Part shown: positions 3,201 to 13,155 of the stretch, in pieces
How positions within the stretch are numbered: position 1 is the stretch's first letter
Layout: each line of letters opens with the position of its first letter
DNA from: Streptomyces sp. NBC_01237
Lineage (GTDB): Bacteria; Actinomycetota; Actinomycetes; Streptomycetales; Streptomycetaceae
Assembly: GCF_035917275.1 (NCBI RefSeq)
Contig: NZ_CP108508.1
Coordinates: 2,170,001-2,234,000 of the forward strand
Direction of reading: 5' to 3'
Length of the DNA: 64,000 nucleotides
Program-made: the position numbers and the translations under genes
Notes under the pieces: generated by a model
Seen by the model: the letters and a program-made list of their open reading frames with translations, nothing else
Told to the model about the DNA's origin: nothing
Database searches by the model: none

Positions 3201-3935
3201 TCAGCCGCCGACGGCCACACCGAACAGCGTGCCGAGACCGTAGGTGACCGCGGCCGCGGCCCCGCCCAGCGCGAGCTGGCGCAGCCCGCTGAACCACCAG
3301 CTGCGGGCCGTCACCCTGGCCACCACCGCGCCGCAGGCGAAGAGACCGATCAGGGCGAGCAGCACGGCGGGCCACATCGCGCTCGCGCCGAGCAGGTACG
3401 GCAGGACGGGCAGCAGGGCGCCCAGCGCGAAGGCGCCGAACGAGGAGACGGCGGCCACGAGCGGCGAGGGCAGGTCACCCGGGTCGATGCCGAGCTCCTC
3501 GCGGGCATGGATCTCCAGCGCCTGCTCGGGGTCGCGGGACAGCTGGCGGGCGACCTCGGCGGCCAGCGCGGGATCGACGCCGCGGGACTCGTAGAGCGCG
3601 GCGAGCTCCGCCATCTCGTCCAGCGGGTGCTTACGCAACTCCCGCCGCTCGACGTCGAGTTCGGCCTCGACGAGCTCACGCTGCGAGGCGACGGAGGTGT
3701 ATTCACCGGCCGCCATGGAGAACGCGCCCGCGGTCAGACCCGCCAGACCGGTGATCACGAGGGTCTGGTGGGAGACGGCGCCGCCCGCGACTCCGGTCAT
3801 CAGCGCGAGGTTGGAGACCAGGCCGTCCATGGCACCGAAGACGGCGGGGCGCAGCCAGCCGCCGTTGACGTCGCGGTGGGTGTGATTGTCCCGGTGCGCC
3901 TCGTGCAGTACGGCTTCGTTCTCGATGATGGCCAC
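3201..3935 (-). CDS. VIT1/CCC1-family Fe2+/Mn2+ transporter
   Basis: Integral membrane protein (244 aa) of the vacuolar iron transporter family, which moves Fe2+ or Mn2+ out of the cytosol. The GTG at 3935 has a strong AGGGGAG ribosome site 3-9 bases upstream, so it is preferred over a longer frame reaching 4004. Near the N-terminus FGAMDGLVSNLALMTGVAG carries the membrane Asp of the transport path and FSMAAGEYTS the conserved Met. A charged, Glu-rich cytosolic segment (about residues 85-155) matches the metal-binding domain, followed by three hydrophobic helices. Divergent from the ADP-ribosylglycohydrolase operon. The shared 266-base gap holds an iron-box-like sequence, which would fit an iron-handling role. 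Confidence 0.88.
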   Translation of the reverse strand: MAIIENEAVLHEAHRDNHTHRDVNGGWLRPAVFGAMDGLVSNLALMTGVAGGAVSHQTLVITGLAGLTAGAFSMAAGEYTSVASQRELVEAELDVERRELRKHPLDEMAELAALYESRGVDPALAAEVARQLSRDPEQALEIHAREELGIDPGDLPSPLVAAVSSFGAFALGALLPVLPYLLGASAMWPAVLLALIGLFACGAVVARVTARSWWFSGLRQLALGGAAAAVTYGLGTLFGVAVGG

Positions 3936-4062
3936 AGTTCTCCCCTTCTCCGGAAGCGGGCTTCCTGCGTTCCGCCCCCGCTCAACACCATCGAAAGTAC
4001 GCACGAAAAAGGCCGCCCGCCAGCAAGGCAGGCCGTACTTACCAGGCCCCTGACCAGGGAAG

Positions 4063-4201: not shown

Positions 4202-5314
4202 ATGGAATCGATCGCAGGCAATGACCGGGCCCGGGGTGCGCTGCTGGGGCTCGCCGTCGGGGACGCGCTCGGCGCACCCGCGGAGAATCTGCGGCCGTCG
4301 GAGATCCGCCGCCGCTGGGGGCGGATCGAAGGCTTCGTGAGCGAGGACCCCGCGGGGACGGACGACACGGAGTACACGATCTTCTCAGGGCTGCTGCTGG
4401 CCCGGCACGGCGCGGCGCTCACCGTCTCCCATGTGGAACGTGCCTGGCACCACTGGATCGCCGACCTCGACGAGGGCCCCTTCCGCGGCGCCGGGTTCAG
4501 CGAGCGCGGCACGCTGGAGAACCTCCGCCGGGGGCTGGCGGCCCCGATCTCCGCGCAGCACCGGCACGCCTGGAGCGACGGCCTCGCGATGCGGGCGGCC
4601 CCGTTCGGGGTCTTCGCGGCGGGCAGCCCGGCCGAGGCGGCGCGGCTGGTCGCGATCGACGGCCGGGTCAGCCATGACGGCGAGGGCATCTACGGCGGCC
4701 AGGCGGTGGCGGCGGGGGTGGCCGCGGCGATGGTGGGGGCGGGGCTCGCCTCCGTGATCGCCGCCGCGCTGTCGGTCGTGCCGATGGACTCCTGGACGGC
4801 CCGTTCGCTGCGGCGCGCGGTGGCCGCCGCGCAGCGCCCCTATCCGGACCGTCTCACCATGGAACGCGCGGTGCGTTCCTCCGTCGTGATCGGCGGATAC
4901 CCGTGGACGGACCTCGCACCGGAGGCGGTGGGCCTGGCGTTCGGCGCGTTCACGGCGGCGCGCGGCGACTTCCGTACAGCGGTGCTGACGGCCGTCAACA
5001 TGGGCCGCGACGCGGATACGACAGCGGCGGTGGCGGGTGCGCTGGCGGGGGCGCTGAAGGGGGAGTGCGCGATTCCGCCCGACTGGGCGTCGGCGATCGG
5101 ACCGGTCCGGGGCAGCTGTCTGCCGTCGATGCGGGGCTATCACGTCCTGGACATCGCGGAGCTGCTGACCCCGGAGGAACCGGAGCAGCCGGAACAGCGG
5201 GACGGCGCGGAGGAGCGGGGCGGGGGGCGCGGGCCCGGGGTCGCCAGGGAGACGGTGCGTCACATGGCGTACGTGGCGGCGTCCTTCGAGCCGGTACGGG
5301 AGGAGGGCCGATGA
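4202..5314 (+). CDS. ADP-ribosylglycohydrolase family protein 1
   Basis: First gene of a seven-gene operon; 370 aa. The family cleaves N- or O-glycosidic bonds to ADP-ribose or related ribosides using two divalent metal ions. All metal motifs are present: GDALGAP near residues 20-25, TDDT at 53-56, and RDADTTAA with Asp270 and Asp272. The ATG at 4202 has GAAGGG upstream; a start 60 bases earlier lacks a ribosome site. The C-terminus ends in a Glu/Gly/Arg-rich tail not needed for the fold. It overlaps the next gene by 4 bases (ATGA), which implies translational coupling. The substrate cannot be told from sequence; the ribokinase downstream suggests a product containing free ribose. Confidence 0.85.
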   Translation: MESIAGNDRARGALLGLAVGDALGAPAENLRPSEIRRRWGRIEGFVSEDPAGTDDTEYTIFSGLLLARHGAALTVSHVERAWHHWIADLDEGPFRGAGFSERGTLENLRRGLAAPISAQHRHAWSDGLAMRAAPFGVFAAGSPAEAARLVAIDGRVSHDGEGIYGGQAVAAGVAAAMVGAGLASVIAAALSVVPMDSWTARSLRRAVAAAQRPYPDRLTMERAVRSSVVIGGYPWTDLAPEAVGLAFGAFTAARGDFRTAVLTAVNMGRDADTTAAVAGALAGALKGECAIPPDWASAIGPVRGSCLPSMRGYHVLDIAELLTPEEPEQPEQRDGAEERGGGRGPGVARETVRHMAYVAASFEPVREEGR

Positions 5315-6657
5315 CCGCCTCACGCCCGGCCGTCCACCACACCGGCACAGCCCCGCGCCCCGGCCGGGACCACCCCGCCGCGGACGTACGGACCGCCCCG
5401 GACCTTGACCGGAACCTGGCGGCCCGCGACTCCGGCCGGCCGGCCGCCGGCCCGCCCGCCCCCGCCGTCCGCCGGGACCGGATCGAGGGGCTGCTGCTCG
5501 GGCTGGCGGCCGGGGACGCCGCGGGGTGGCCCGCCGCCCGGCACCGGGCGGCCCGGATGCCCGAGTGGACGCGGCGGCTCACCCGGGAGCTGGACACCTT
5601 CGCCGAACTGAACGCCACCACGACGCTCCCGGTCCCGATCGCCCTCAACCAGCCGCCCGAGCCACTCCGGCTCGGTCCGTCCGACGATGCCGAGTGGGCC
5701 GCGTTCGCCGCCCGTACGGTGCTGGCCGGCGCGGCCGACCGGGCCGACCGCCTCTCCCCAGGCCGCCGGATGCGCGACGCGGTGGACCGGTCCTGGAACG
5801 CGCTGGCCGCGAAGGTCGCCGCGGCCGGCGCCCGAGCGCCCGAGGTCGAGGCCGCCGTGCTCCCCCTGCGGGCCCGGATCTCGGTACGGGCCGGGCTCGG
5901 CAATCTCGCCGCCGGTCTCCGCCCGCCCGCCACCGGTCACGACAATCCGCACTACTTCGACGACGCCGCCTGCGTACGGGCCGCCGTGCTCGCCGTCGTC
6001 CACCCCGGTGACCCGGCCGCCGCCGCCGAACTCGCCGAATTCGATGCCCGGTACACACAGGACGGCGACGGGGTGCACGGCGCCCGCGCCATCGCCGCCG
6101 CCGTCGCCGAGGCGCTGGCCGGAGCGGATGTCGAGACGGTGGTGAACGCCGCACTCGCCCAGCTCCCCGAGGGCACCGAGATCGCCCGCAACGCCGAGCA
6201 CGCCGTGCGGCTCGCCCGCGCCTTCGCGGCCGACCCGCACGGGGCCTTCGCCCTGATCCCGGTGCTGGAGCACCAGATCGTCGACCACGTCTACAGCTAT
6301 GGAATCGCGGCGGCCGAGACCGTGCCGGTCGCCCTCGCGCTGACCACGGCGGCCCGCGGCGAGATCGCCCAGGCCGTCCCGGCGGCGGCCTGTCTGTCGC
6401 GGGTCGCGGACTCCGCGCCCGCCCTCGCCGGGGCGCTGACCGGGGCGTTCGGCGGCATCGGCACCGTACCGGCGGGCTGGCGCGATGCCTGCCGCACCCT
6501 GGCCGGGTGTGCGCTGCCCCGCCTCGCGGGCACGGATCTCATCGAACTCGCCGGGCTGCTGGCAGACACGGAACCGGCCCCCACGGGTGGACAATTCCGG
6601 CATGACGCCCACAACGACCGCTCTCCGGACCTCACCGCCCACGCTCGCACTCGATGA
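5311..6657 (+). CDS. ADP-ribosylglycohydrolase family protein 2, altered metal site
   Basis: 448 aa, starting in the ATGA overlap with the previous gene. The first ~55 residues are Pro/Ala-rich and probably disordered; the fold starts at RIEGLLLGLAAGDAAG. The family motifs are changed: TDDT becomes SDDA (residues 124-127) and the second metal motif DxDT becomes VADS (365-368), so the first Asp is lost. It may be a weak enzyme, one with another specificity, or a non-catalytic partner of its paralogues. Its last 56 bases overlap the next gene in another frame. Confidence 0.8.
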   Translation: MTASRPAVHHTGTAPRPGRDHPAADVRTAPDLDRNLAARDSGRPAAGPPAPAVRRDRIEGLLLGLAAGDAAGWPAARHRAARMPEWTRRLTRELDTFAELNATTTLPVPIALNQPPEPLRLGPSDDAEWAAFAARTVLAGAADRADRLSPGRRMRDAVDRSWNALAAKVAAAGARAPEVEAAVLPLRARISVRAGLGNLAAGLRPPATGHDNPHYFDDAACVRAAVLAVVHPGDPAAAAELAEFDARYTQDGDGVHGARAIAAAVAEALAGADVETVVNAALAQLPEGTEIARNAEHAVRLARAFAADPHGAFALIPVLEHQIVDHVYSYGIAAAETVPVALALTTAARGEIAQAVPAAACLSRVADSAPALAGALTGAFGGIGTVPAGWRDACRTLAGCALPRLAGTDLIELAGLLADTEPAPTGGQFRHDAHNDRSPDLTAHARTR

Positions 6658-7786
6658 CCGTGTCACCGGCGCGCTCGTCGGCGCCGCCGTGGGCGACGCG
6701 CTCGGCGGCCCCGTCGAAGGCTGGACCCCCGAACAGATCACCGAGCGGCACGGCGGCCGGGTGCGCGGCATCGTCGGCCCCTGGCACGGCGAACAGTGGC
6801 GCACCGCCCGCCCCATCGCCCCGTACCACAAGGGCGACGGGCACGTCACCGACGACACCCTGATGACACATGCGCTGGTACGGGTCTACGGCACGGTCCG
6901 CGACCACCTCGACGCGTACGACATCGCCGACCATCTCGTACCGGACCTGATCTCCCGCCCTCGCTGGATCCCGGAGCTGGAGGCCGAGGCGCTGCCCGTC
7001 CAGCGGATCTTCCTGGCCGAGAAGTGGATCGTCGCGCGGCTGCACTACGGCCATGTCGACCCGCGCGAGGCGGGCAGCGGAAACATCGTCAACTGCGGTG
7101 CGGCGATGTACATGGCGCCGGTCGGCCTGGTCAACGCCGCCCATCCCGAGGCCGCGTACACCGAGGCGCTGGAGGTGGCGGGGGCCCATCAGTCCTCGTA
7201 CGGGCGGGAGGCCGCCGCGGTCTTCGCCGCCGCCGTCGCCGCCGCCTGCTCGCCGGGCGCCACCCCCGCGTCCGTCGTCGGGACCGCTCTGGCACTGGCC
7301 AAGGACGGGACCCGGTCCGCGATCGAGGCGGTCTGCGAAGCGGCCGTGGAGCACAGCGACTTCGAGTCGGCGCTGGCTCCGCTGCGCGCCGCCGTCGCCC
7401 CCTTCGACACGGTCGGCCCGGACTACCGCGCCCCCTCGCTCGGCGCCCGCCGCCCCTCCCGGCTGCACTCCATCGAAGAACTGCCGATCGCGCTCGGCAT
7501 GCTGCTCGTCGGCGACGGCGACTACCGCCGCACCGTCCTCGGCTCCGTCAACTACGGCCGCGACTGCGACTCGATCGCCACCATGAGCGGTGCCGTCGCG
7601 GGCGCGCTGCACGGCGCGTCGGCGATCCCCGCCGACTGGGCGGCGACGGTCGCCGGGGCCAGCCGCCTCGATCTGCACACCCCGGGGCTGGAGCTGGCGG
7701 CGGTGGCCCGCGAGATCTTCGTACGGGACACGGCCCGCCGCCGGGCGCACGAGTCGGCCTTCGCCGCGCTGGCCGGTGAGCGGTGA
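6602..7786 (+). CDS. ADP-ribosylglycohydrolase family protein 3
   Basis: 394 aa paralogue with intact metal motifs: GDALGGP, TDDT at residues 83-86 and RDCDSIA with Asp321 and Asp323. The ATG at 6602 lies inside the end of the preceding gene and has GGGTGGA about 10 bases upstream; this gives the conserved N-terminus DDRVTGALVGAAVGDALGG. The GTGA at its stop starts the next gene. Among the four paralogues this one and the first look the most complete as enzymes. Confidence 0.85.
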   Translation: MTPTTTALRTSPPTLALDDRVTGALVGAAVGDALGGPVEGWTPEQITERHGGRVRGIVGPWHGEQWRTARPIAPYHKGDGHVTDDTLMTHALVRVYGTVRDHLDAYDIADHLVPDLISRPRWIPELEAEALPVQRIFLAEKWIVARLHYGHVDPREAGSGNIVNCGAAMYMAPVGLVNAAHPEAAYTEALEVAGAHQSSYGREAAAVFAAAVAAACSPGATPASVVGTALALAKDGTRSAIEAVCEAAVEHSDFESALAPLRAAVAPFDTVGPDYRAPSLGARRPSRLHSIEELPIALGMLLVGDGDYRRTVLGSVNYGRDCDSIATMSGAVAGALHGASAIPADWAATVAGASRLDLHTPGLELAAVAREIFVRDTARRRAHESAFAALAGER

Positions 7787-9150
7787 ACGTCCGGCTGACC
7801 TGGGTGCAGCCCGAGGATCTGGTCGGACACGAGCTGCGGCAGGCGGCGCAGGACGGCCGGGACACGCGGGACATCGAGCGGCGCTGGTACGGGGCCGGGG
7901 GCACCCCCGCCCCGGACCGCGCCGGGGCGTCCGAACCGCCCGCACCACCCCGGCTGCGCGCGCTGGCCGAGCGGCTCCTGGATGAACTCGCCCTGCGGGA
8001 ATCCCCGTTGGCGGGCGACGAGCCGACGGACCTGGAGGCGATCCGGGCGGCCTGCCCGCGCTGGCCGGCGCTTCGCACCGACCGGTGCTCCGTCGACCGG
8101 GACCGGCTGCACGCCGCCTGGCTCGGCCGGGCCGCGGGCTGCCTGCTCGGCAAGCCCGTCGAGAAGCTGGAGCTGACCGGTATCCGCGAACTGGCCCGCG
8201 CGGCCGGCAACTGGCCGCTCACCACCTGGTTCACCGCCAGGGGCGTGCCCGTGGCGCTGCTGGAGCGCCACCCCTGGAACCGGCGCTCCGCACCCACCTC
8301 GCTGGCCGAGAACATCGACGGCATGCCCGAGGACGACGACCTCAACCACCCTTTGCTCACGGTGCTGTTGCTCCGCAGTCACGGACGCGCCTTCACCACG
8401 GCCGACCTCGCCCGGCACTGGCTCGCCGAACTCCCGGCGGGCCGCGTCTTCACCGCCGAGCGCATCGCGTACCGCAATCTGCTGGACGGCATCGAGCCGC
8501 CGGACACGGCCCGCCACCGCAACCCGTTCCGTGAGTGGATCGGCGCACAGATCCGGGCCGACGCGCACGGCTGGACGCATCCGGGCGACCCGGCCGCCGC
8601 TGCCGCCCAGGCCCATCGGGACGCGATCCTCACGCACACCGCCAACGGGGTGTACGGGGCGATGTTCACCGCCGCCGCACTCGCCGAGGCGGCCGGTGGG
8701 GAGAGCGATGTCCATGGGTGCCTGGCGGCCGGGCTCCGTGTGGTGCCGCCGCGTTCCCGGTTCACGCACGCGGTCCGCCTCGGTATCGCGACGGCCCGCG
8801 CGGAATGGGACTTCGACACGGTGGTGGACCGGCTGCACGCGGCGTACGCGGGCGTGTACCACTGGGTCCATGTGCTGCCCAACGCGGCGTTGCTGGCCGC
8901 CGCCCTCACCCACGCCGACGGTGACTTCACCCGGTCCATCGGCTGCGCGGTGTCCGGCGGCTGGGACACCGACTCCAACGGGGCCACCGCCGGATCGCTC
9001 GCCGGTCTGCTGGCCGGCCGGCCCGCCGCGCTGCCCGACCACTGGACCGCCCCGCTGAAGAACCGTCTCGCCACATCCGTCGCCGGTTTCGACGCGACCG
9101 GCTTCGACACCCTCGCCGAACTGACCTACCAGGAGGCAATGCGCCCATGA
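7783..9150 (+). CDS. ADP-ribosylglycohydrolase family protein 4 with extra N-terminal region
   Basis: 455 aa, GTG start overlapping the upstream stop by 4 bases. An N-terminal part of about 105 residues (MNVRLTWVQPEDLVGHEL onward) has no counterpart in the other three. The catalytic fold then begins at HAAWLGRAAGCLLGKP. The metal motifs are present in variant form: EDDD at residues 183-186 and GWDTDSNG with Asp395 and Asp397. The W-D-T-D-S-N-G form is typical of a subgroup of ADP-ribosylglycohydrolase-like proteins with poorly known substrates. It overlaps the ribokinase gene by 4 bases. Confidence 0.83.
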   Translation: MNVRLTWVQPEDLVGHELRQAAQDGRDTRDIERRWYGAGGTPAPDRAGASEPPAPPRLRALAERLLDELALRESPLAGDEPTDLEAIRAACPRWPALRTDRCSVDRDRLHAAWLGRAAGCLLGKPVEKLELTGIRELARAAGNWPLTTWFTARGVPVALLERHPWNRRSAPTSLAENIDGMPEDDDLNHPLLTVLLLRSHGRAFTTADLARHWLAELPAGRVFTAERIAYRNLLDGIEPPDTARHRNPFREWIGAQIRADAHGWTHPGDPAAAAAQAHRDAILTHTANGVYGAMFTAAALAEAAGGESDVHGCLAAGLRVVPPRSRFTHAVRLGIATARAEWDFDTVVDRLHAAYAGVYHWVHVLPNAALLAAALTHADGDFTRSIGCAVSGGWDTDSNGATAGSLAGLLAGRPAALPDHWTAPLKNRLATSVAGFDATGFDTLAELTYQEAMRP

Positions 9151-10031
9151 CCGGTATCGCGGTGCTCGGCAGCACCAATATGGATCTCGTCGCCTACGTC
9201 GCCAGGGCACCCGAGCGGGGCGAGACCGTCACCGGACGGGAGTTCCGGACGATCCCCGGCGGCAAGGGCGCGAACCAGGCCGTCGCAGCCGCCCGCGCGG
9301 GCGGGGACGTGGTGATGATCGGAGCGGTCGGCGCCGATGTGTACGGCGACCTGCTCCGCGCCAACCTGTCCGGCTCCGGGGTGGACACCGAGTTCCTGCA
9401 CACCGTCGACGGCCCCAGCGGCACCGCGCACATCGTCGTGGACGACGCCGGGTCCAACGCGATCGTGGTGATCCCCGGCGCCAACGGGACCGTCACCGCG
9501 CTCGGCCCCGGAGAGATCACCGCGATCGCCTCCGCCGATCTGCTGCTCCTCCAGCTCGAACTCCCGCTGCCGGCCGTGCTGGAGGGAGCCCGCGCCGCCC
9601 ATGTCCATGGCGTACGGACGATCCTCACCCCCTCGCCCGTACAGCCGCTGCCCGAGGAACTCCTCGACTGTGTCGACCTGTTGATCCCCAACGAGCACGA
9701 GGCGGCCGCGCTGAGCGGCAGCGCCGATCCGTACGCCGCCGCCGAGCTGCTGCTCCGCCAGGTCCCGGAGGTCGTCATCACGCTCGGTGCGAAGGGCAGC
9801 CTGTACGCGGCCCGGGGCGGCGGGCCGGTCCTCTTCCCCGCCCCCGAGGTCACCGCCGTCGACACGACCGGCGCCGGGGACACCTTCGTCGGCACGCTCG
9901 CGGTGGCGCTCGGCGAGGGCCGCCCGGTCCCCGAGGCGCTGGTATGGGCGTCCTCGGCCGCCGCCCTGTGCGTACAGCGGCCCGGGGCCTCCACGTCCAT
10001 GCCGTACCGAAGCGAGATCGATGCCTCATGA
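9147..10031 (+). CDS. rbsK: PfkB-family carbohydrate kinase, ribokinase type
   Basis: 294 aa, the usual ribokinase length. Ribokinase phosphorylates D-ribose at O5. Seen: N-terminal GSTNMDLVAYV, the first PfkB signature GGKGANQAVAAARAG, and the C-terminal signature DTTGAGDTFVG with the catalytic Asp. Its place inside a glycohydrolase operon, with 4-base overlaps on both sides and no ribose transporter nearby, suggests it phosphorylates ribose (or a ribosyl product) released in the cell. A deoxyribokinase or other PfkB specificity cannot be excluded. Confidence 0.88.
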   Translation: MTGIAVLGSTNMDLVAYVARAPERGETVTGREFRTIPGGKGANQAVAAARAGGDVVMIGAVGADVYGDLLRANLSGSGVDTEFLHTVDGPSGTAHIVVDDAGSNAIVVIPGANGTVTALGPGEITAIASADLLLLQLELPLPAVLEGARAAHVHGVRTILTPSPVQPLPEELLDCVDLLIPNEHEAAALSGSADPYAAAELLLRQVPEVVITLGAKGSLYAARGGGPVLFPAPEVTAVDTTGAGDTFVGTLAVALGEGRPVPEALVWASSAAALCVQRPGASTSMPYRSEIDAS

Positions 10032-11227
10032 AGCACCCTGCCCAGGGCCCCCTGACCGGGCTGAAGGTCATCGACCTCGCCACGCTCTTCGCCGGACCGC
10101 TCGCGGCCACGATGCTCGGTGACTTCGGCGCCGACGTCATCAAGGTCGAGCACCCACGCAGACCCGACCCCTCGCGCGGGCACGGCCCCGCCAAGGACGG
10201 CGTGGGCCTGTGGTGGAAGCTGCTCGGCCGCAACAAGCGCAATCTGACGCTCGATCTGTCCTCCCCCGGCGGCCGTGACGTCCTGCTGCGGCTGGCCGCC
10301 GGCACCGATGTGATCATCGAGAACTTCCGGCCGGGGACGCTGGAGCGCTGGGGTCTCGGCTGGGAGGAGCTGCGGGCCGTGAACCCGCGTCTCGTACTGG
10401 CCCGGGTCACCGGCTTCGGCCAGTTCGGCCCCTACGCGCACCGCCCCGGCTTCGGCACCCTCGCCGAGGCGATGAGCGGTTTCGCCGCGATCACCGGGGA
10501 GCCGGACGGGCCGCCGACGCTGCCGCCGTTCGGACTCGCCGACTCGATCGCGGCGCTCGCCACCGCGTACGCGGTGATGGCCGCGCTGGCCGGGCGCGAC
10601 GCCACCGGCGGGGGCCAGGTGGTCGACATGGCGATCATCGAGCCGATCCTGACGGTGCTGGGCCCGCAGCCCCTCTGGTACGACCAGCTCGGCTACGTCC
10701 AGCCGCGCACCGGCAACCGCTCGCGCAACAACGCCCCGCGCAACACCTACCGTACCCGCGACGGCCACTGGGTCGCCGTCTCCACCTCCGCGCAGTCGGT
10801 GGCCGAGCGCGTCATGCGGCTGGTCGGCCGGCCGGAACTGATCGACGAGCCATGGTTCACGGCGGGCACCACCCGCGCCGAGCACACCGAGGAGCTGGAC
10901 GAAGCGGTCGGCACCTGGATCGCCCGGCACACCCGCGAGGAGGCACTGACCGCGTTCGAGAAGGCGGAGGCGGCCATCGCGCCGATCCATGACGTACGGG
11001 AGGTGATGGAGGATCCGCAGTACCGGGCACTGGACACCATCACCGAGGTCGACGACCCGGAGCTGGGACCGCTGCGGATGCAGAACGTCCTGTTCCGGCT
11101 GTCCGAGACGCCGGGGGCGATCCGCTGGGCGGGCCGCCCGCACGGGGCGGACAGCGAGGAGATCCTCACCGGCCTCGGCCTGTCGGCTCCCGAGATCACG
11201 GCACTGCGGGCGCAGGGAGCCCTATGA
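10028..11227 (+). CDS. family III CoA-transferase (CaiB/BaiF type)
   Basis: 399 aa. Family III CoA-transferases move CoA between carboxylic acids through an enzyme aspartyl-CoA intermediate. Seen: LKVIDLATLFAGPLAATMLGDFGADVIKVEHP at the N-terminus (typical of CaiB/BaiF), GRNKRNLTLDL, and FGLADSIAAL, where the Asp is in the expected place for the nucleophile. The start in the ATGA overlap with the kinase is preferred over an upstream frame. Its partner downstream is a CitE-like lyase, a pairing seen in acid-CoA cleavage pathways such as itaconate/citramalate degradation. The acid substrate is unknown. Confidence 0.87.
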   Translation: MKHPAQGPLTGLKVIDLATLFAGPLAATMLGDFGADVIKVEHPRRPDPSRGHGPAKDGVGLWWKLLGRNKRNLTLDLSSPGGRDVLLRLAAGTDVIIENFRPGTLERWGLGWEELRAVNPRLVLARVTGFGQFGPYAHRPGFGTLAEAMSGFAAITGEPDGPPTLPPFGLADSIAALATAYAVMAALAGRDATGGGQVVDMAIIEPILTVLGPQPLWYDQLGYVQPRTGNRSRNNAPRNTYRTRDGHWVAVSTSAQSVAERVMRLVGRPELIDEPWFTAGTTRAEHTEELDEAVGTWIARHTREEALTAFEKAEAAIAPIHDVREVMEDPQYRALDTITEVDDPELGPLRMQNVLFRLSETPGAIRWAGRPHGADSEEILTGLGLSAPEITALRAQGAL

Positions 11228-12078
11228 CCCCCCTTTTCGTGCCCCTGACCTGGCTGTACGTTCCCGGGGACCGGCCTGAGGTGGTGCGCAAGGCGCTCGG
11301 CTCGGGCGCGGACGTGGTGATCGTCGATCTGGAGGACGCGGTCGCGCCGGACCGCAAGGAGTACGCGCGGGCGGCCACCGCCGAGCTCCTGGCCGACCCG
11401 GTCACCACGGCGCCGGGCGCGGTACCGGTCCATGTCCGGGTGCACGGCGAGGACGACGTACGGGCCCTGGCCGGGCTGCCGGGGCTCTCCGGGTTCCGGC
11501 TGCCCAAGATCACCCATGCGGTGTCCGTGCACCATGTGGCGGCGGTGGCCCCCGGAGTACCGCTGTACCCCCTGCTCGAATCGGCGCTCGCGATCGAGCA
11601 CGCCTACTCGATCGCGACGGCCCATCCGGATGTGCGGGGCATCGCACTCGGCGAGGCGGACCTCCGGGCCGATCTGGGGGTACGGGAGGACGCCGGGCTG
11701 GACTGGCCGCGCAGCCGGACCGTGGTCGCCGCGAGGGCGGCCGGTCTGCCGCCGCCCGCCCAGTCGGTGTTCCCGGACGTCCGGGACCTGGACGGGCTGT
11801 GGACGTCCTGCGGGCGGGGGCGGGCGCTGGGAATGCTCGGCCGGGCGGCGATCCACCCCCGGCAACTGGCGGTGATCGAGCGGGCCTTCAGGCCCACGGC
11901 CCAGGAGATCGAGGCGGCCGAGCAGATCGTGGCCGCCTCGTCGGTGGACGCGGGTGCGCTGGCGCTGCCGGACGGGCGGTTCGTGGACGCCGCGGTGGTG
12001 GCGTCGGCGCGCAGAACGCTGGCGCTCGGACAGCAGAACGCCGGACCGGCTGGAGTTACCAGCCTGTCCGGCGACTGA
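11224..12078 (+). CDS. HpcH/HpaI aldolase/citrate lyase family protein (CitE-like)
   Basis: 284 aa, last gene of the operon, overlapping the CoA-transferase by 4 bases. CitE-like TIM barrels cleave or form C-C bonds in 3-hydroxyacyl-CoA thioesters such as citramalyl-CoA or malyl-CoA with Mg2+. Seen: WLYVPGDRPEVVRKAL at the N-terminus, VIVDLEDAVAPDRKE with the acidic metal ligand, LLESALAIEHA (the Glu of the metal site), GEADLRADLG, and AAIHPRQL near the end. With the CoA-transferase it could activate and split a hydroxy-acid. A hairpin terminator follows. Confidence 0.85.
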   Translation: MTPLFVPLTWLYVPGDRPEVVRKALGSGADVVIVDLEDAVAPDRKEYARAATAELLADPVTTAPGAVPVHVRVHGEDDVRALAGLPGLSGFRLPKITHAVSVHHVAAVAPGVPLYPLLESALAIEHAYSIATAHPDVRGIALGEADLRADLGVREDAGLDWPRSRTVVAARAAGLPPPAQSVFPDVRDLDGLWTSCGRGRALGMLGRAAIHPRQLAVIERAFRPTAQEIEAAEQIVAASSVDAGALALPDGRFVDAAVVASARRTLALGQQNAGPAGVTSLSGD

Positions 12079-12083
12079 GGAGT

Positions 12084-12099
12084 CCGGGGGCGCCCCCGG
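12084..12099. terminator. bidirectional hairpin between citE-like gene and lgt
   Basis: Perfect 16-base palindrome CCGGGGGCGCCCCCGG in the 30-base gap between two convergent genes. No T-run on either side, as is usual in Streptomyces. Confidence 0.55.
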
Positions 12100-12108
12100 G
12101 AAAGACGG

Positions 12109-13155
12109 TCAGATCTTCTCGGCCGCCTCGGGGGCGCCGTTCTTCTCCAGCCGGTTCTTCTCCGCGCTGTCCTTCCCGGCGTCGCTGTCCTTCCCGGCCT
12201 CGTCCTTGTCCGCGCTGTCCTTGTCCGCGTCGTCCTTGTCCGCGTCGTCGGTCACGCCGGTGGCCTCAGCGCCTGAGTCGTCCGTGGACTCGGCGTCGCC
12301 GTCCTTCGTCTCGGGCCCGGCGTCCTTCGACTCCGGGTCGACCGCGGCGGGCTCCACGACCGCCTCGCGTCCGGGGCGTACCTTCGCCGAGATCACGATG
12401 TACGTGACGGCGAGGACGAACACGATGATCGCGGTCCAGACGTTGAGGCGCAGGCCGAGCACGTGGTGGGCCTCGTCGACCCGCATGTACTCGATCCAGG
12501 CGCGGCCCGTGCAGTACGCCGCGACGTACAGCGCGAACGCCCGGCCGTGGCCGAGCTTGAAGCGGCGGTCGGCCCAGATCACCAGCAGCGCGACACCGAT
12601 GCACCACAGCGACTCGTACAGGAAGGTCGGGTGGTAGGTGCCGGCGACCCGGTTCGGGCCCTCGCTGATCTTCAGCGCCCACGGGAGGTCGGTCGGCTTG
12701 CCGTACAGCTCCTGGTTGAACCAGTTGCCCCAGCGGCCGATGGCCTGGGCGAAGGCGATACCGGGGGCCAGCGCGTCGGCCCAGGCGGGCAGCGGGATAC
12801 CGCGCCGGCGGCAGCCGATCCAGGCACCGACCGCGCCGAGCGCGATCGCGCCCCAGATACCGAGGCCGCCTTCCCAGATCTTGAAGGCGTCCACCCAGTT
12901 CTCACCGTCGCTGAAGTACAGCTGATAGTCGGTGATGACGTGGTAGAGCCGGCCGCCGACGAGACCGAAGGGCACGGCCCACACGGCGATGTCGGCGACG
13001 GTGCCGGCTCTGCCGCCCCGGGCGATCCAACGCTTGTTGCCGAGCCAGACGGCGACAAAGACACCGATGATGATGCAGAACGCGTAGCCGCGGAGCGGGA
13101 TCGGGCCGAGATCGATCACGCCGGTCGACGGGCTGGGAATGAAGGCAAGGTTCAT
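12109..13155 (-). CDS. lgt: prolipoprotein diacylglyceryl transferase
   Basis: Membrane enzyme (348 aa) that adds diacylglycerol to the lipobox Cys of prelipoproteins. The signature GRWGNWFNQELYG, the His-containing YHPTFLYESLW and about seven hydrophobic segments fit Lgt. The last ~85 residues form a long, highly charged Asp/Lys/Glu-rich tail with repeats of the type DKDDADKDSADKD; Gram-negative Lgt lacks this, and it is common though variable in actinomycetes. LspA, the next enzyme of the pathway, is at 59609-60277. Confidence 0.96.
   Translation of the reverse strand: MNLAFIPSPSTGVIDLGPIPLRGYAFCIIIGVFVAVWLGNKRWIARGGRAGTVADIAVWAVPFGLVGGRLYHVITDYQLYFSDGENWVDAFKIWEGGLGIWGAIALGAVGAWIGCRRRGIPLPAWADALAPGIAFAQAIGRWGNWFNQELYGKPTDLPWALKISEGPNRVAGTYHPTFLYESLWCIGVALLVIWADRRFKLGHGRAFALYVAAYCTGRAWIEYMRVDEAHHVLGLRLNVWTAIIVFVLAVTYIVISAKVRPGREAVVEPAAVDPESKDAGPETKDGDAESTDDSGAEATGVTDDADKDDADKDSADKDEAGKDSDAGKDSAEKNRLEKNGAPEAAEKI

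Follow-up and report, generated by a model that had tools for sequence, protein, structure and literature searches.

A conserved Streptomyces operon joining four ADP-ribosylglycohydrolase-fold proteins to ribokinase and CoA genes, with a possible role in glycoside breakdown

What task could bring four proteins of the ADP-ribosylglycohydrolase (ARH) fold together with a ribokinase, a coenzyme A (CoA) transferase and a CitE-like lyase? The question is raised by a seven-gene operon at positions 4202–12078 on the + strand of a 64,000-nucleotide stretch of DNA (the window) from the 10.19 Mb genome of Streptomyces sp. NBC_01237. Because relatives of the operon also contain an importer, a LacI regulator, a glycosidase-like protein and an esterase, breakdown of an external glycoside is the best reading, and we place about half of our confidence in the proposal that the window genes supply the enzymes of an operon that catabolises a glycoside or glycosyl ester acquired from outside the cell. 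No description of the operon or its function was found in the open-licence literature searched, where the S. coelicolor genes appear only in lists of DraG homologues and in one enzyme panel.

Seven genes conserved as a unit in Streptomyces

The operon begins with four ARH paralogues, all matching PF03747: ARH1 (4202–5314, 370 aa, 205.8 bits), ARH2 (5311–6657, 448 aa, 117.7 bits), ARH3 (6602–7786, 394 aa, 182.7 bits) and ARH4 (7783–9150, 455 aa, 160.6 bits), the last with ~100 additional N-terminal residues. These are followed by the ribokinase RbsK (9147–10031, 294 aa; PfkB in Pfam), a class III (CaiB/BaiF) CoA-transferase homologue, CoAT (10028–11227, 399 aa; PF02515 CoA_transf_3, 414.4 bits), and the CitE-like acyl-CoA lyase (11224–12078, 284 aa; PF03328 HpcH_HpaI, 93.5 bits). 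All seven proteins score over their Pfam cut-offs (26.2 bits for PF03747 and 25 bits for PF03328) and, with NCBIfam, these matches confirm the family assignments of an earlier sequence-only reading of this locus. The coordinates likewise agree with its layout of seven same-strand genes with 4-base overlaps and one of 56, the successive overlaps being 4, 56, 4, 4, 4 and 4 bases. The 56-base overlap hinges on the ARH3 start at the ATG at 6602, where no clear ribosome-binding site is seen by eye; later starts are disfavoured because the sequence is conserved from about residue 17. The whole genome contains 10 PF03747 matches (two are near-abutting pieces, probably of one gene), so the presence of four such genes inside 5 kb is not due to chance. 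All seven genes look to be under purifying selection, with ratios of non-synonymous to synonymous substitution rates of 0.11–0.43 in comparisons with two or three relatives.

ARH2 was used as a marker for the operon and is matched at E below 1e-160 in 41/61 Streptomyces genomes. We read 20 of these 41 loci, counting as present those genes that match in two pieces (L013, L016, L025, L028). All seven genes occur in the same order in 17/20 loci and the ribokinase alone is missing in 2/20. The remaining locus holds ARH2–ARH3 only and belongs to a genome (G012) in which the operon is split, with CoAT and the lyase elsewhere and a probable ARH1 in a third place (L027, L068). A lyase match at E up to 1e-60 is found in 40/41 genomes with ARH2 and 3/20 without (Fisher p 4e-11); in two of these three the contig begins at or inside ARH4, and a fourth ARH2-negative genome (G010) gives a partial lyase match at E 1e-30. 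The comparisons support the view that the seven genes form one conserved unit. The gene set, whose occurrence across actinobacteria the sequence-only reading had put forward as a check, does recur, both in the intact Streptomyces loci and within a larger operon in other actinobacteria.

In S. coelicolor, the genes SCO2028–SCO2031 are counted among the DraG/ARH homologues in the available parts of PMC5087735 and PMC9411070, the latter of which lists eight. Judging from locus numbers and the nearby trp genes (position from the accessible part of PMC5036795), these four appear to be the ARH genes of the operon, which would thus account for half of that list; by gene order, SCO2028 and SCO2030 would correspond to ARH1 and ARH3.

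Regulator and importer genes in relatives

Searching a phylum sample with the window ARH4 recovered 12/296 genomes, 8 of them Streptomyces, and we therefore switched to a non-Streptomyces ARH4 query, taking the best 80 of 305 relatives (among which L071 and L057 represent one contig). The gene set outside Streptomyces comprises LacI, two sugar ATP-binding cassette (ABC) permeases, a binding protein, ARH3, ARH4, ribokinase, CoAT and lyase, with the optional additions of ARH1–ARH2 (before ARH3) and of a glycosidase-like protein and a secreted esterase (between ribokinase and CoAT). A permease and the lyase share one locus in 70/80 relatives, and these complete loci contain LacI in 67/70, ribokinase in 63/70, the glycosidase-like protein in 60/70 and the esterase in 22/70. 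ARH2 adjoins ARH1 in all 17/80 relatives where either covers >30% of its length; the gene counts per complete locus consider the + strand only and so omit the pair in L090 (16 vs 17), and a piece of ARH2 lies at the contig edge in L073. A separate count of 60 for ARH1 takes in cross-hits and was set aside. The best solved match of the binding protein is Lmo0181 (1e-21; 503 distinct sequences), which offers no clue to the substrate, many of the 60 matches listed being maltose-binding-protein constructs. The sequence-only reading had noted that no transporter or regulator lies inside the operon, which holds in the window but fails in these relatives, and its suggestion of an internally produced substrate is not supported, given the importer and LacI found in most of them and in the S. 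gossypii operon.

In S. gossypii, genes for LacI, permeases, binding protein, ARH1–ARH4, ribokinase, CoAT and lyase are located ~2 kb before lgt and trp genes, and this complete operon shares its genomic neighbourhood (lgt) with the window operon. LacI, permeases and binding protein also precede ARH1 in 2/20 Streptomyces loci, in these cases away from lgt. Since S. gossypii and these two loci have regulator and importer, their absence at the window operon is probably a lineage effect. A different explanation is that most Streptomyces now use the operon for salvage or repair of an internally made or damaged riboside, the importer having been dropped as needless. Such a change of role would be consistent with the missing regulator and importer beside the window operon, with the low frequency of a permease within a few kb (4/41 operon-bearing Streptomyces genomes, plus S. 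gossypii), and with the window genome, in which no homologue of the glycosidase-like barrel was found beyond short FGE-domain matches. However, a close importer relative is present away from the operon in 27/41 genomes (16/20 + 11/21) and also in the window genome, and we judge repurposing to be unlikely.

Twelve rhizobial-type loci and one from Nonomuraea make up the 13 of 27 plasmid records that were read (in L183 several genes match in pieces). LacI, two permeases, a binding protein and ARH3 are present in 12/12 rhizobial loci, and 11/12 have a second ARH, which bears a C-terminal extension; CoAT is found in 7/12, the lyase in 6/12 (one CoAT-bearing locus ends at the edge of the examined stretch) and a ribokinase inside the operon in 1/12. 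Identity to the window proteins is ~42–47% for ARH3, 44% for CoAT and 32% for the lyase, and the importer permeases are 24–27% identical. By these comparisons the rhizobial plasmids carry a diverged version of the gene set and, as divergence is much greater in the importer genes than in the enzymes, the two would have been linked either long ago or on two occasions. Nine genes of a 1.8 Mb genome from the class to which Streptomyces belongs (48% GC in the stretch; L171) are assigned to the operon, namely LacI, permeases, binding protein, ARH3, ARH4, glycosidase-like protein, CoAT and lyase; no ribokinase was found in the stretch examined, which reaches the contig edge past the lyase.

In the window, the operon is flanked by a divergent VIT family gene (3201–4004, − strand; PF01988) and the convergent lgt (12109–13155, − strand; PF01790), both of which are neighbours in 17/20 Streptomyces loci. 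A GC-rich hairpin at 12083–12100, between the lyase and lgt, is weakly indicated as a possible terminator (−20.2 kcal/mol for 12070–12115, z −1.49, with 18/200 shuffles folding as well). Scans of the window for tRNAs and Rfam families gave no matches.

Active sites and a proposed pathway

The ARH family active site comprises a catalytic Glu together with DD and DxD(T/S) metal ligands. Among aligned sequences passing length filters, the canonical residues of ARH1 (E28, D54, D55, D270, D272, T273) are kept in 36/36 orthologues and those of ARH3 (E39, D84, D85, D321, D323) in 91/91. ARH4 retains the catalytic Glu and metal ligands in 41/41, except that the first-motif Asp is replaced by Cys or Asn. 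The motif Glu and the first Asp of DxDT are missing from ARH2 in 37/37, and this degenerate paralogue is possibly a non-hydrolytic partner of ARH1. The 'four hydrolases' of the sequence-only reading are therefore four ARH-fold paralogues but not four equals, ARH2 having neither the catalytic Glu nor one metal Asp. Extra ARH4-like genes (~45% identical) occur elsewhere in some Streptomyces with the rest of the operon not nearby (L063, L064, L065); ARH4-like genes in other settings were examined for context and no clear setting emerged.

The fold itself, the metal-site motifs intact in ARH1, ARH3 and ARH4, and the listing of SCO2028–SCO2031 as DraG/ARH homologues in the available part of PMC9411070 would all suit an alternative already raised by the sequence-only reading, in which the operon removes or recycles ADP-ribose marks and the ribokinase and CoA genes are unrelated passengers. 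Against this, Pfam identifies neither a transferase nor a macrodomain among the seven genes, relatives have a sugar importer, and the ARH proteins score far under the cut-offs for the DraG equivalog TIGR02662 (best 73.4 of 337.05 bits) and for Tri1 NF041672 (best 50.7 of 490 bits). Furthermore, when SCO2028 and SCO2030 were assayed on U-alpha-ADPr, the one linkage reported in the accessible part of PMC13036486, neither was detectably active. Mark removal is thus weakened, with the ARH fold still in its favour, and we consider it very unlikely.

RbsK passes the TIGR02152 ribokinase equivalog cut-off (302.3 vs 299.65 bits) and falls under that of a second ribokinase model, PRK11142 (254.7 of 341). 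The nearest named relatives of CoAT are from Streptomyces (83–91% identical) and its best NCBIfam match is succinate-glutarate CoA-transferase, under the cut-off. For the lyase, the nearest NCBIfam model is RipC/Ccl (NF038242; 140.6 bits, equivalog cut-off of 375 not reached) and the nearest solved chain is 8khl (4.3e-32). The names of the nearest families suggest a citramalyl- or hydroxymethylglutaryl-type acid, which, with no lyase or CoA-transferase equivalog cut-off reached, does not settle the identity of the acid. CoAT–CitE pairs without ARH genes adjoin MmgE/PrpD genes at other loci (L058, L066), which are likely to be organic-acid catabolic clusters; L058 additionally contains a branched-chain-type ABC importer, IclR and an Asp/Glu racemase. 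This association supports an organic-acid role for the pair.

From the gene content, order, conservation, residue states and co-occurrence described above, we infer a pathway as follows. A LacI-controlled sugar ABC importer would take up the compound in relatives, and in the window genome, where it is absent beside the operon, an importer relative elsewhere may substitute. The ARH-fold hydrolases would then cut furanoside bonds, perhaps as the couples ARH1–ARH2 and ARH3–ARH4. Ribose freed in this way would be trapped by RbsK as ribose 5-phosphate, and a hydroxy-dicarboxylic acid, which may have been joined directly to the ribose, would be loaded with CoA by CoAT. Finally, the CitE-like lyase would split the acyl-CoA to acetyl-CoA and a 2-oxo acid (pyruvate in the case of citramalate). 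The riboside catabolism model of the sequence-only reading fits the conserved gene association across actinobacteria and, in part, rhizobia; its internal substrate source gains no support, and the ribokinase is not universal.

Several observations weigh against this pathway. No match to LacI, permeases, binding protein, glycosidase-like protein or esterase was found within the window at E 1e-3. The related permease–permease–binding protein set (binding protein 61%, permease 68%) is ~5 Mb from the operon (L155, C1:7190.6–7194 kb), and its close relatives occur in numerous Streptomyces, whether or not these have the operon. For the permease, a close relative is present in 30/41 genomes with the operon (three with linked copies only) and 10/20 without; with a Fisher p of 0.09 the link to the operon is weak, and we did not adopt this set as the window's importer. 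RbsK is absent from 7/70 complete loci as well as the two Streptomyces loci, and CoAT from 5/12 rhizobial loci, whose binding protein gave no match to the actinobacterial one at E 1e-4. The distance correlations of 0.81–0.97 may reflect species relatedness alone. Lastly, Gly143 of CoAT sits where the family has its nucleophilic Asp, a residue whose role is described in the available part of PMC9813914. This Gly is found in 94/94 relatives, as is Glu147 at +4. The Asp is present in three full-length CoA-transferase paralogues of the same genome and in 3/4 solved relatives with alignments shown, the other being a benzylsuccinate CoA-transferase subunit with Gly.

The sugar and the acid might instead derive from a single natural polymer or mixture as distinct components, freed by different enzymes and not necessarily joined directly. 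The secreted esterase and glycosidase-like protein of many complete loci are consistent with such a source, as is the occurrence elsewhere of CoAT–CitE relatives without ARH genes. However, in many genomes CoAT and CitE lie tightly packed against the sugar genes, and both turn up again in rhizobia, whose 12 loci yielded neither an esterase nor a glycosidase-like relative; we regard separate components as rather unlikely. CitE-type reactions are reversible, and this, along with an ARH2 that is not a canonical hydrolase, would allow a synthetic direction in which CoAT and the lyase run in reverse, some ARH proteins bind or transfer sugar and the product is a ribosylated acid. The LacI, the sugar importer and sometimes the secreted esterase of relatives indicate breakdown, making synthesis highly improbable.

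Comparison with known systems

The component families are known; as far as our searches show, the open-licence literature does not describe how they are joined in one conserved pathway, the putative ARH1–ARH2 couple or the changed active site of the CoA-transferase. A broader proposal, possible but doubtful, is that ARH-fold proteins act as general furanosidases on an environmentally common ribosyl-acid compound, in a pathway common to soil actinobacteria, a reduced-genome actinobacterium of 1.8 Mb and rhizobia, with ARH1–ARH2 as an active/inactive couple and a CoAT clade that swaps its nucleophilic Asp for Glu at +4. Catabolism of an external glycoside would place this family, whose bacterial members are commonly catalogued as ADP-ribose erasers, in an enzymatic context beyond ADP-ribose signalling. 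That the gene set reaches from Streptomyces to rhizobia and even into a very small genome suggests that import of the substrate, unnamed in the literature searched, is worthwhile; the binding protein of a complete operon makes a direct search for it feasible.

Compared with the ADP-ribosylhydrolases DraG, ARH1 and ARH3, the operon adds a ribokinase, CoA genes and, in relatives, an importer; it is without an ADP-ribosyltransferase, has a degenerate ARH2 and falls short of the equivalog cut-offs for DraG and Tri1. Ribose and nucleoside utilisation operons contain LacI, an ABC importer and ribokinase, and the relatives' operons resemble them in regulator, importer and ribokinase but add ARH-fold hydrolases and a CoA-transferase/lyase pair, whereas the window is without regulator and importer. 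Itaconate degradation proceeds through Ict, Ich and RipC/Ccl, and the operon resembles it in placing a CoA-transferase before a CitE-like lyase whose closest model is RipC/Ccl; unlike that pathway, the seven genes include no hydratase, the lyase is under the RipC cut-off and sugar genes lie alongside. Finally, CoAT resembles the class III (Frc/CaiB) CoA-transferases in a Pfam match that spans its whole length and differs from them in having Gly where they have the nucleophilic Asp, with Glu invariant at +4, which makes this clade a separate question of enzymology.

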